Of a stretch of 64,000 bases of DNA, positions 25,376 through 60,750 are shown in pieces. The notes under the pieces are model-generated. The model was given only the letters and a program-made list of their open reading frames with translations. It made no database searches and was not told where the DNA came from. The first letter of the stretch is position 1. Every line of letters begins with the position of its first letter. Source of the DNA: Pseudomonas sp. WN033 (lineage in GTDB: Bacteria > Pseudomonadota > Gammaproteobacteria > Pseudomonadales > Pseudomonadaceae); contig NSKG01000001.1 of assembly GCA_002287035.1 (NCBI GenBank), positions 186,001-250,000 of the forward strand, read 5' to 3'. Position numbers and translations under genes: made by a program.

Positions 25376-25530
25376 GGAACCTCTGAAAAACTACCTGCGT
25401 TGGCAATACTGCGTTAAAAACAGCCTCAAAATGCTCATTTACACCGCGTAAACTGCGCTTTTTCGGCTGTTTTTGCGGGGCCGCCATCGGTATTGTCTTG
25501 CCTGCCTCGCCTACGTTTTTCGGCGGTTCC
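25376..25530 (-). mobile_element. 155-base MITE-like element, copy 1
   Basis: It is bounded by the direct repeat TCAA (25372-25375 and 25531-25534) and has imperfect terminal inverted repeats: AGGAACC-type ends followed by GAAAAAC within about 20 bases. Copy 2 at 59217-59371 is in the other orientation, has the same length and differs at about eight positions. Inner inverted repeats let it fold as one long hairpin. The element is too short for a transposase. The rest of the 335-base gap 25303-25637 holds only the olsB promoter region and GGAGG ribosome site. Confidence 0.85.
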
Positions 25531-56037: not shown

Positions 56038-57252
56038 ATGAGCGCCGCAAAACCCAATCGTAAACGTCGCACCCTATGGATCGTCGCCCTCGCCGTAGCG
56101 GCTACCGGCCTGTCTGGCTGGTACTGGATCAGCAATGGCCAGGGTAACCCCGAGTACACCGTTGTCAGCGTCACACGCGGTGATATCGAAGACAGCATCA
56201 CCGCCCTCGGAACTCTGGAGCCGCTCAATTATGTCGACGTGGGTACCCAGGTTTCCGGCCAGCTCAAGGTTCTGCATGTCGAACTCGGTGATCAGGTCGA
56301 GCAGGGGCAACTGCTGGCCGAGATCGATCCGACCGTGTATCTGGCCCGGGTAGAAGCCAGCACCGCGCAACTGGCCAACCAGCAGGCCCAGCTCAAGGAC
56401 CGCGAAGCCCAGCACGATCTGGCCCGACTGCAGGCCGAACGCCAGCGCAACCTGTTCCGTGAAGACGCCACCAGCCGCGAAGCACTCGAGACTGCCGAAG
56501 CCAGCCTGCGCTCAGCCGCCGCCCAGATCGATGTGCTCAAGGCTCAGATCCGCCAGACCGAATCAAGCCTCAAGGCCGACCAGGCCGATCTGGGCTATAC
56601 CCGGATCTACGCCCCGATGACCGGCACCGTGGTTCAGCAACTGGCCAACCAGGGCCAGACCCTGAACGCCAACCAGACCGCGCCGGTGGTAGTACAGATT
56701 GCCGACCTGTCGACCATGACCGTGCGCACCCAGGTATCCGAGGCCGACATCAGCCAGCTCCGCGTCGGCATGCCAGCCTACTTCTCCACTCTCGGCCAGC
56801 CGACCCGGCGTTGGGAGGGCGAGCTGCGCCAGATCCTGCCGACCCCGGAAGTGATCAACAACGTGGTGCTGTTCAACGCCCTGTTCGATGTGCCCAATCC
56901 TGGCGGCGACCTACTGCCGCAAATGAGCGCCCAGGTGTTCTTCGTTCGCGCCGCCGCTGACAATGTACTGACCGTGCCGGTATCTGCCCTGCGCCAAGTC
57001 AGCCGCCCCCAGCGTCAGGCCGACGGCGTGGACCAGAGTGAACAAGCCAGTCACGGCCGCCCCTATGAAGTACAGGTACTGGACGCCCAGGGCCGCCCGC
57101 AGAACCGCATGGTACGTATCGGCGTGCGCACTCGCGTGCTGGCCGAGGTTATCGACGGCCTGGAAGAAGGCGACCAGGTGGTAACCGGCAACCTGCGCAC
57201 CAGTGCCCAAAGCAGCCAGCCGCAGGGCGGCCCGCCGCGCAGGTTCATGTAA
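56038..57252 (+). CDS. macA: MacA-type efflux adaptor
   Basis: A 404-residue membrane fusion protein with one N-terminal helix (about 12-30, [18 protein letters not shown]). It has split lipoyl motifs ([20 protein letters not shown] and [15 protein letters not shown]), a long alpha-hairpin between, and a MacA-like beta-barrel ([17 protein letters not shown]). MacA binds MacB and an outer-membrane factor to export macrolides, toxins or siderophores; PvdR of pyoverdine export is the same type. It is followed two bases later by macB. Cargo is unknown, since no pyoverdine genes are seen. Confidence 0.88.
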
Positions 57253-57254
57253 TC

Positions 57255-59201
57255 ATGAGTACCCCACTGATCCGCCTCGAAGGCATCGGCAGAACCTACC
57301 GCAATGGCGAGCTGGCCACGACGGTGCTGCGCGACGTCAACCTGGATATCCAACAGGGCGAATTCGTCGCCATCATGGGTACCTCCGGCTCCGGCAAATC
57401 GACCCTGATGAATTTGCTCGGCTGCCTGGACAAACCCAGCACCGGACGCTACCTGTTCAATGGCGAGGATATAGCCCGGTTCAGCAGCGACGAGCTGGCC
57501 AGCCTGCGACGCAAGACCTTTGGCTTCATCTTTCAGAGCTATCACCTGATCCCCTCGGCCACCGCCACCGAGAACGTCGAGGTACCGGCCATCTACGCCG
57601 GCCTGCCGCGTGAACAACGGCACCAGCGGGCCCAGGAACTGCTTACCGAACTGGGCCTGGGCGAACGCCTGAACAATCGGCCCAGCCAGCTTTCCGGTGG
57701 TCAGCAGCAACGGGTATCGATCGCCCGGGCGCTAATGAACGATGCCCAGGTAATCCTGGCCGACGAACCCACTGGCGCACTCGACAGTCAAAGCGGCCGC
57801 GACGTGCTGGCCCTGCTCAAGCAACTGCACCAGCGCGGCAAAACCGTCATCGTGATCACTCATGACCGCGACGTGGCCAGCCACGCCGACCGGCTGATCG
57901 AAATCCGCGACGGCCAGATCATTCATGACAGCGGCAACCCAGCGCCGGAGCAACCGGCCCCAACCACACCTGCGACTGACGAAGATCACCACGCCAGCGC
58001 CGCCCTGGCCGATACCGGCGAGGCTGTGCGCATGGCCCTGCGGGCACTCAAGGCCAATCTGTTCCGTACCGTACTGACCCTGCTTGGTATCGTCATCGGC
58101 GTAGCCTCGGTGGTGGTGATGCTGGCGGTCGGCAACGGTGCCCGGCAGGAGGTTTTGGACCGCATCAGCTCGATGGGCACCAACCTGCTGCTGGTACGCC
58201 CCGGCGCGCCCAACACCCGGCGCTCGCAGGACGGCTCCACCAACACCCTGACCGTGCAGGATGCCGAACTGGCCGCTCTGGTCGACAACGTGGTCGCCGC
58301 TGTGCCGGAAATGAACGGCCGGGTCACAGTGCGCAGCGGTAACACCGACTACCAGACCCAGGTCACCGCCACCAGCGCCGACCTGCCCATCGCCCGCGAC
58401 TGGCCGGTGGCCTCGGGCGTGTTCATCAACGACGAGGACGACCAGCGCTATGCTGCTGTCGCCGTGCTCGGGCGTACCGTGGCCACCAATCTGTTCGGCA
58501 ACGCCGACCCGATTGGTGAATACGTGCTGATGAACAATGTCCCGTTCCAGGTCATCGGGATCATGAGTGAAAAAGGCGCCGCCCCATGGGGAGCCGATCA
58601 GGACGACGTAGTCTTCGTCCCACTCAACACCGGCAGCCTGCGCCTGATCGGCCAGCGCTACCTGAACTCGATCACCGTCATGATCGACGATCTGCGCCAG
58701 GCAGATGCCACCCAGGAAGCGGTGTTCCAGGCCATCCTGCAGTCGCATGCCGGGGTCGAAGACTTCCAGATCCGTAACATGGCCTCACTGCTGGAAAACG
58801 TCGCCCAAACCCAGAACACCTTCACCGTGCTGCTCGGCTCGATCGCCGCCATTTCCCTGCTGGTAGGCGGCATCGGAGTAATGAACATCATGCTGGTCAA
58901 CGTCACCGAACGCACCCGCGAAATCGGCATCCGGGTCGCCACCGGTGCCCGTACCAGCAACATCCTCCAACAGTTCATCGTCGAGGCCGTGGTGGTCTCG
59001 GCCATTGGCGGCGCCCTGGGCGTGATCGGCGGCCTGGCCTTTGCCGGCGGCCTGCAGTTCTTCGGCACCGCCATCCAGTTCACAACCGGCCCGGTACTGC
59101 TGGCCTTCGGCTGCGCTTTCGCTACCGGCCTGATCTTTGGCTACATGCCCGCCCACAAGGCGGCGCACCTTGACCCTGTGGTGGCTCTCAGTGCGGATTA
59201 A
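57255..59201 (+). CDS. macB: MacB-type ABC transporter (ATPase/permease)
   Basis: A 648-residue fusion of an ATP-binding domain and four-helix permease. The ATPase has Walker [17 protein letters not shown], the signature [15 protein letters not shown] and Walker [13 protein letters not shown]. The membrane part begins with helix about 275-295, then a large periplasmic domain (FtsX/MacB type) with [17 protein letters not shown], and three C-terminal helices. It powers the MacA-outer-membrane channel. The 5' end follows macA by two bases; the 3' end is 15 bases before a MITE-like insertion. Confidence 0.92.
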
Positions 59202-59216
59202 ACCAGCTCTTCTTAA

Positions 59217-59371
59217 GGAGCCTCTGAAAAACGTAGGCGAGGCAGGCAAGACAATACCGATGGCGGCCCCGCAAAAACAGCCGAAAAAGCGGAGTTTACG
59301 TGGTGTAAATGAGCATTTTGAGGCTGTTTTTAACGCAGTATTGCCAACACAGGTAGTTTTTCAGCGGTTAC
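59217..59371 (+). mobile_element. 155-base MITE-like element, copy 2
   Basis: It is flanked by TTAA on both sides (59213-59216 and 59372-59375), matching the TYAA target duplication of copy 1. Length and about 95% of bases are shared with copy 1 in reverse orientation. An internal 10-base inverted repeat (AAAAACAGCC at 59273-59282, GGCTGTTTTT at 59322-59331) gives it a long hairpin form. It sits between macB and the mature part of the outer-membrane factor gene and has an open frame in phase with that gene. Confidence 0.88.
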
Positions 59372-60750
59372 TTAAACCGACTCTGATCTCTGCAGCACTG
59401 GCCCTCAGCGGCTGCGCCATCAACGCGCCGCTGCCTGATGCACAGATTGCTGCACCGGCCCAGTGGAGCCAGCCGGCCGATCAGTCCAGTTGGCCGACCA
59501 GCGCCACCTGGGATAGCTACGGCTCAGCCGAGCTCCAGACGCTGCTGCAACGCGCCCGCACCAACAACCTGGACCTGGCCAGCGCCGCCAGCCGCCTGGT
59601 GCAGGCCGATGCCCAATTGCGTCAGACCGGCGCCAGCCTGCTACCGCAGGCCAGCGGTGGTCTGGGCACCACCCGCAGTGACAGCAGTCGTACCGATGCC
59701 AATGGCGACAGCAGCCGCACCAGCTACAGCGCCAACCTGAATGTCAGCTATGAAGTCGACTTCTGGGGCCGCAACCGCAATCTGGTAGAGTCGGCCCGCG
59801 CCAGCCTGGACGCCAGCCGCTTCGACTACTCGACCCTGATGCTCAGCATCGAGGCCAGCGTCGCCAACACCTGGTTCCAGCAGTTGGAAACCGAACGCCG
59901 CCTGCTCCTGGCGCGCGAGAATCTGGCCGCCGCCGAGCGGGTACTGGAACTGGTCGAAGCGCGTTACCGCTATGGCGCTGCCGATAGTCTGGAACTCAGC
60001 CAGCAACGTACGCTGGTTACCCAACAGCGGGCCAGCCTGCCAAGCCTGGAGCAACAGCAACTGGTCCTGCGTAACGCCATGGCCCTGCTGCTCGGCGAAG
60101 CGCCAGACGCCGACCTGCCGGTGCCCGGCGATCTGCAAAGCCTCCAGTTTCCGGCCATCGAAGCCGGCTTGCCGGCCGAACTGTTGCAGCGCCGCCCGGA
60201 CATCCGCGCCAGCGAAAGCCGGCTGGTCGCCGCTAATGCCGATCTTGGTGCCGCCCGCGCAGCCCTGTACCCCAGCATTCAGTTGACCGGCCAGTACGGC
60301 GCCCAAAGCCTGGCGCTCTCGACCCTGGTCAACAACCCAGTCACCAGTTGGTCACTGGCCGCCGGCCTGACCCAACCAATCTTCCAGGGCGGACGCCTGC
60401 GCGCCCAGGTAACCCAGGCCGAAGCCCGGCAGGAAGAACTGCTGATCGACTATCAGCGCAGCATATTGAGTGCCTTTGGCGAGGTGGACACCGCCCTTGG
60501 CGCCCTGCGTCAGGCTCAGGTGCGTCACGACTATCTGGCCCAGGCCACCGAAGAAGCCGAACTGGCCTTCCGCCTGGCCGAAACCCGTTACCGGGCGGGC
60601 GCCATCACCCTGCAAACCCTGCTCGACACCCAACGTACCCTGTTCCAGAGCCAGGACAGCCTGACCCAGCAGCGCTCCGCCTGGCTGCAGGCCAGCGTTG
60701 ATCTGTTCCGGGTGCTGGGGGGCGGCTGGGCCGATAGCAGCGATAGTTGA
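59341..60750 (+). CDS. Outer-membrane efflux lipoprotein (NodT/OprM type)
   Basis: A ~469-residue outer-membrane factor. The mature protein starts at the Cys of the lipobox LSGC and has the two repeated coiled-coil/beta halves of the TolC/NodT family (LLQRARTNNLDLASAASRL, GLGTTRSDSS, SWSLAAGLTQPIFQGGRL). It is the channel partner of MacA-MacB. No ATG lies near the signal peptide: an in-frame TTG at 59341, inside the MITE-like insertion, gives MPTQVVFQRLLKPTLISAAL and a credible lipoprotein signal. An ATG further up in the element (near 59260) is in frame too. The native start seems to have been replaced by the element. Confidence 0.85.
   Translation: MPTQVVFQRLLKPTLISAALALSGCAINAPLPDAQIAAPAQWSQPADQSSWPTSATWDSYGSAELQTLLQRARTNNLDLASAASRLVQADAQLRQTGASLLPQASGGLGTTRSDSSRTDANGDSSRTSYSANLNVSYEVDFWGRNRNLVESARASLDASRFDYSTLMLSIEASVANTWFQQLETERRLLLARENLAAAERVLELVEARYRYGAADSLELSQQRTLVTQQRASLPSLEQQQLVLRNAMALLLGEAPDADLPVPGDLQSLQFPAIEAGLPAELLQRRPDIRASESRLVAANADLGAARAALYPSIQLTGQYGAQSLALSTLVNNPVTSWSLAAGLTQPIFQGGRLRAQVTQAEARQEELLIDYQRSILSAFGEVDTALGALRQAQVRHDYLAQATEEAELAFRLAETRYRAGAITLQTLLDTQRTLFQSQDSLTQQRSAWLQASVDLFRVLGGGWADSSDS

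Follow-up and report, generated by a model that had tools for sequence, protein, structure and literature searches.

A MITE lying in frame near the start of a NodT-type outer-membrane channel gene in Pseudomonas sp. WN033, and its family in Pseudomonadaceae

Introduction

When a small mobile element comes to lie across the beginning of a gene, does the gene receive a new start from the element, or does it keep its old start and read through? The question is raised by the last gene of a macA-type, macB-type, NodT-type channel cluster in Pseudomonas sp. WN033, which lies in the 64-kb stretch of DNA analysed here (contig NSKG01000001.1, positions 186,001 to 250,000; "the window"; all coordinates are those of the window). 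A first-pass annotation had suggested that a MITE-like element rebuilt the start of this gene.

Results and Discussion

The locus and the element

The features of the locus are collected in Table 1. The channel protein is matched by TIGR01845 (NodT-type outer membrane factor) with 362.6 bits, above that model's curated cut-off of 210.05, and the LSGC lipobox that the first-pass annotation read in it is present. The best NCBIfam match of MacB (NF007826, 672.8 bits) is below its equivalog cut-off of 966, as is that of MacA (NF008606, 318.8 bits, cut-off 342), so "MacAB-type" is the right wording: the exporter named earlier stands as a type, not as a set of equivalogs.

Table 1. Features of the channel locus and of the element, in window coordinates
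Feature	Position	Strand	Remarks
Second MITE copy in the window	25376..25530	-	TTGA duplication; copy L002; 95% identical (G000:C1:211378-211530)
macA-type gene	56038-57252		order: macA-type, macB-type, NodT-type channel
macB-type ABC transporter gene	57255..59201	+	648-aa ORF; precedes the channel gene and overlaps it
NodT-type outer-membrane channel gene	59191..60750	+	519 aa from GTG 59191; open frame, stop-free
GTG, ancestral channel start	59191..59193	+	in frame; overlaps macB stop by 11 nt
Left TTAA target-site duplication	59213..59216	+	
MITE, 155 bp	59217..59371	+	ends GGAGCCTCTGAAAAAC / GTTTTTCAGCGGTTAC
In-frame ATG inside MITE, possible alternative start	59260..59262	+	anti-Shine-Dalgarno duplex -7.5 kcal/mol at 12 nt
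Inner palindrome of MITE	59273..59331	+	arms 59273-59288 and 59316-59331; 16 nt, 88% complementary
In-frame TTG inside MITE, start proposed in the first-pass annotation	59341..59343	+	anti-Shine-Dalgarno duplex -5.6 kcal/mol at 11 nt
Right TTAA target-site duplication	59372..59375	+	
Lipobox LSGC	59404..59415	+	Cys is residue 75 counted from GTG 59191

The element at the channel start is real: its ends are inverted (59213-59375, 20-nt arms, 85% complementary), the TTAA duplication that flanks it is perfect, and it belongs to a repeated family. Being short and multicopy, with terminal inverted repeats and a target-site duplication, it is a MITE. The element and one duplication together add 155 + 4 = 159 bp, or 53 codons, and because this gain is a stop-free multiple of three the channel frame reads through the element. 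A consensus scan found neither a promoter-like nor a terminator-like site in 59000-59600, and we therefore reject the MITE as a source of either; the earlier suggestion that it perhaps supplies a promoter finds no support in that interval. Three further ideas were also rejected: a known structured RNA (a single chance hit that stays under the gathering score), strong mRNA structure (251-nt fold, z -1.21; 23 of 200 shuffles fold equally well), and a counterpart of the element peptide among solved structures (only ribosomal protein eS7, in seven weak matches of E 0.3-0.42).

The ancestral start codon precedes the element

The channel frame is open from 59134, and three in-frame start codons lie upstream of the MITE (TTG 59137, TTG 59170 and GTG 59191), contrary to the earlier statement that the only in-frame starts are inside it. 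The first base of the last of these is 8 nt ahead of the macB stop codon (59199-59201). Of 58 genomes searched, the window's own included, 27 others have a close ortholog beside macB (L030-L056); the element is present in none of these 27 junctions, and in all 27 a start codon (22 GTG, 5 ATG) stands at precisely this position, 8 nt before the macB stop. The gene therefore does have a normal start codon, which the first-pass annotation had denied it, and the orthologs without the element start at the equivalent upstream place. This conservation is more than a by-product of the MacB sequence, because the codon choices at the overlapping MacB residue both preserve the start codon: where that residue is serine it is written AGT in 23 of 23 cases (window included), as against 47 of 647 serine codons elsewhere in the macB segments, and where it is asparagine it is AAT in 5 of 5, as against 190 of 600.

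The natural empty site can be seen in Halopseudomonas phragmitis (L030), where a single TTAA lies within a gene that has a 21-residue leader. The lipobox cysteine falls at residue 17-24 in 26 of the 27 relatives parsed; in the other (L040) the automatic parse to residue 8 is wrong, and inspection by eye puts LSAC at 18. The idea that the element rebuilt the gene start thus holds for the N-terminal coding region, which has been rebuilt, and not for the start codon, whose supply by the element is unneeded with the ancestral GTG still in frame.

The internal codons of the first-pass annotation do exist in frame, TTG 59341 lying 24 residues before the lipobox cysteine and ATG 59260 giving a longer leader of 51 residues. 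Their matches to the anti-Shine-Dalgarno sequence compare with those of the upstream codons as follows: the best duplex of GTG 59191 is -6.0 kcal/mol and ends 2-3 nt before the start (11% of random positions equal it), and that of TTG 59170 is -6.4 kcal/mol at 4-5 nt; the duplex of ATG 59260 is equalled by only 2.1% of random positions and that of TTG 59341 by 15%. Strength of duplex alone favours the internal ATG. Spacing, conservation and the overlap with macB, taken together, favour the ancestral GTG, with probable translational coupling to macB.

Probable read-through from the ancestral start and its alternatives

The MITE inserted in frame, and we think it fairly probable that the gene is read through from the ancestral GTG, yielding an extended leader and the same mature channel as before. 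A 155-bp member of a YTAR-targeting family entered the NodT-type gene early in its coding sequence and duplicated the TTAA that is single in the empty site; translation from GTG 59191 would then run through the open frame of the MITE, which would encode an extension of the signal-peptide n-region and give a leader of 74 residues (cysteine at 75 of 519 aa) where H. phragmitis has 21. Judging from the lipobox, lipoprotein signal peptidase would remove this whole leader at LSGC, and the mature lipoprotein should be unchanged because the sequence from the cysteine onward is untouched by the insertion. The strongest hydrophobic stretch of the predicted product is the original signal core (11-residue mean up to 1.98), and a weaker one (up to 1.45) lies in the element part of the leader. 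Read-through is also suggested by other predicted proteins that carry the element peptide (P0122/P0129, P0125, P0131 and P0132, the last itself a NodT/OEP channel), in which there is a methionine before the element, a signal core after it, and no methionine between the two.

Two points stand against read-through from the GTG, and each lends something to an alternative. One is that the Shine-Dalgarno match of ATG 59260, though distant, is stronger than that of the GTG and is indeed the best of the candidates tested. Translation might accordingly start now inside the MITE, at TTG 59341 or at this ATG, with the element supplying a working start; both codons are in frame, and the TTG leader would be of nearly ordinary length. 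We nevertheless consider this unlikely, given that the ancestral GTG survives in frame, that the duplexes of both internal starts end as far as 11-12 nt before them, that the scan of 59000-59600 showed no promoter-like site, and that the channel P0132 has the same arrangement without any methionine inside its element part.

The other point is the leader itself, which at 74 residues far exceeds those of the relatives. Such a leader could slow or block export, in which case the insertion would have damaged a gene now heading to loss while other channels substitute for it; the genome has five matches to the channel protein, itself included, and the element's absence from the other 27 junctions agrees with this. 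The filled allele is seen in the window's genome only, and no homologue among the 120 listed has the element part at the channel site, since each covers 89% of the 519-aa query at most. One scan of genome contigs gave relatives with an identity no higher than 44%, and these were left out. Damage of this kind seems quite improbable all the same: the frame is preserved without a stop, other predicted exported proteins have the same arrangement, and the mature part differs from that of H. phragmitis by 66 synonymous and 7 nonsynonymous changes (dN/dS 0.032; 0.079 for 481 codons of macB). This low ratio is a weak sign that the gene may still work, because the divergence from H. phragmitis may largely predate the insertion. 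Synonymous divergence between the two is 0.22 in the channel (59374-60747), about twice the 0.108 of the macB end (57756-59198).

Copies of the element in the genus and beyond

The genome of the window has 28 matches to the MITE (query with short flanks) and that of H. phragmitis, the nearest relative among the genomes compared, has 34 (query the element alone); at least one match occurs in 21 of 37 genus genomes, own included. Further afield, the element peptide is matched (E <= 0.001) in 206 of 298 sampled Pseudomonadaceae genomes, again counting its own. Thirteen plasmid records also have the central palindrome, and in one of them the match takes in at least 80% of the element. Leaving partial copies aside, we examined 42 near-full copies, 19 from the window's genome and 23 from H. 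phragmitis, and found both ends in 41 of them. The commonest lengths are 140 bp (18 copies) and 155 bp (5 copies). The target-site duplications follow YTAR for the most part; 12 of the 41 copies have a perfect one, and 31 have one with no more than a single mismatch. Adding 4 to the length gives a multiple of three in 24 of 41; 25 have a sense frame without a stop from one end to the other, and 18 combine the two. These counts come from copies sharing descent and are thus not independent.

Exact matches to the MITE end number 21 in the window's genome and none is paired at IS length, so that an autonomous partner IS was not found there by this one strict pattern in a 23-contig draft. Four elements of the same genome (L020, L021, L023 and L024) have the same central palindrome and terminal repeats other than those of L001-L019, as if core and ends were exchangeable.

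In four of the 42 near-full copies (L001, L154, L155 and L164) the element is traversed by a frame that has 120 or more codons on one side. Only the window copy, L001, is a clear fusion among these 42 copies of the two genomes surveyed, and the other three, which resemble chance or antisense frames, were rejected; per copy, then, fusion is rare. Elsewhere, L187, L188 and L180 were rejected as fusions, the element there preceding a downstream gene with its own start, and further long frames that stay open across the element in whole genomes look antisense and were not counted.

The element peptide in other predicted proteins

A search with residues 8-62 of the channel product (55 residues), limited to candidates of 0.55-1.75 times 519 aa, gave 24 candidate proteins, 21 of them at E <= 0.01; all 21 have the same element peptide in the same frame. 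They are predictions, many from metagenomes. By eye, the peptide lies within 35 residues of the start in nine, within 7 of the end in three, and internally in nine. Host domains are recognised on both sides of the insert in the CobT-type P0139 (422 bits, two stretches), in P0137 (DHOR, two) and in P0122 (CrtC, two), and a DAO domain is recognised across the insert of P0126. P0122 and P0123 each have two copies of the element peptide in one predicted protein, and the Cas1 match of P0123 is confined to the part between its two copies.

Two proteins were set aside as clear signal-peptide cases, P0138 for a methionine between element and core, and P0128 for a missing N-terminus. At another locus (L190, G096:C18:23115-23252) a predicted signal peptide seems to be interrupted by the element in its hydrophobic core instead of its n-region. 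The MITE is absent before the signal core in the 14 relatives of P0132 whose N-termini we looked at (L236-L249). Two channels of this type (L246 from G124 and L247 from G298) have another palindromic repeat, GGAGCGAGCTCTGCTCGCGAA plus its reverse complement, in frame between start and signal core, which looks like a REP-type repeat.

As a control, an antisense-frame query (41 residues of copy L149) gave no candidate; it is a weak control, being shorter than the 55-residue sense query. The 21 proteins yield no rate of in-frame insertion, because they were gathered with a sense-frame query and out-of-frame insertions, which break genes, would not show. No selection at the peptide level was detected among 39 distinct in-frame copies, by codon positions or by pN/pS: differences at the three positions are nearly flat (0.085, 0.114 and 0.111), and pN/pS is 0.57, a value that the pattern of collecting itself lowers through pN.

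Insertions in acetoacetyl-CoA synthetase

The MITE also lies in frame inside the acetoacetyl-CoA synthetase gene of three genomes, at one site in G021 (L176) and at another in G010 (L178) and G032 (L177). The two halves of the gene at the second site are 0-9 bp apart, by match coordinates, in 26 other genus genomes. The G010 and G032 inserts differ by 0 synonymous and 3 nonsynonymous changes, as against a dS of 1.157 in the rest of the gene, and vertical inheritance of the insert is thus rejected. The two inserts resemble each other much more closely than do the flanking parts of the gene, which is better explained by homogenisation or by independent recent insertions at this spot.

A wider reading of the family

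With the 4-bp duplication, the two commonest lengths (140 and 155 bp) are each divisible by three, and often one frame has no stop throughout; the element could thereby add a peptide of some 44-51 residues to host proteins. It is possible, if rather less than an even bet, that this Pseudomonadaceae family is a frame-neutral protein-inserting element for which signal-peptide n-regions are a safe harbour, and that survival of the host gene, not any function of the peptide, maintains its frame neutrality. We propose n-regions as the harbour because a peptide added there would be removed with the leader. The channel gene shows how a mobile element can reside inside a gene with the predicted mature protein unaltered, and one widespread element in Pseudomonadaceae would account for inserts of some 44-51 residues and for overlong leaders among predicted proteins. 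For the channel gene itself the reading is corrected, the old start being kept, not replaced, and its leader offers a natural experiment on the tolerance of signal-peptide n-regions.

Comparison with known systems

In the open-licence PMC literature, as far as the available excerpts go, we recognised no description of this MITE family as in-frame protein inserts. One known element of similar build is MITEPsy1 of Pseudomonas syringae (PMC3189936), which in the accessible part of that report has the 4-nt duplication CTAG or YTAA and is related by its authors to ISPsy2 (IS5). The two have in common an end motif (...CCTCTGAAAAA...) and 4-nt duplications, and by this likeness, not via a transposase, the present MITE can provisionally be placed near IS5. 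They differ in that MITEPsy1, of 100 nt, inserted 104 nt and according to its authors changed the frame, whereas the present element is 155 bp long (140 bp most commonly in the family) and adds 159 bp in frame. Another P. syringae MITE, of 102 bp, reportedly inactivates genes, in the portion of the text at hand (PMC6053426).

Other small mobile elements do occur in frame. The enterobacterial RU repeats have open frames fused to genes, one of them in a predicted signal peptide, according to the excerpt available, and differ from the present MITE in their sizes (127, 168 and 103 bp) and hosts (PMC2759123); Coxiella QMITE1 and QMITE2, MITEs sometimes in frame in genes, differ in size (300-400 and 150-190 bp) and in their direct repeats, as given in the section available (PMC5896051). 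In behaviour the family most closely resembles the Rickettsia palindromic elements, which the accessible text describes as small mobile elements, some 150 bp long, that contain an open frame and occur in frame within protein-coding genes (PMC10969869). Like them, the present MITE is found in frame in unrelated proteins (the 21 predicted proteins and the acetoacetyl-CoA synthetase of three genomes); unlike them, it has another host group, several of its cases lie in signal-peptide n-regions, and it duplicates a YTAR target. The likeness that we draw from these descriptions is one of behaviour.
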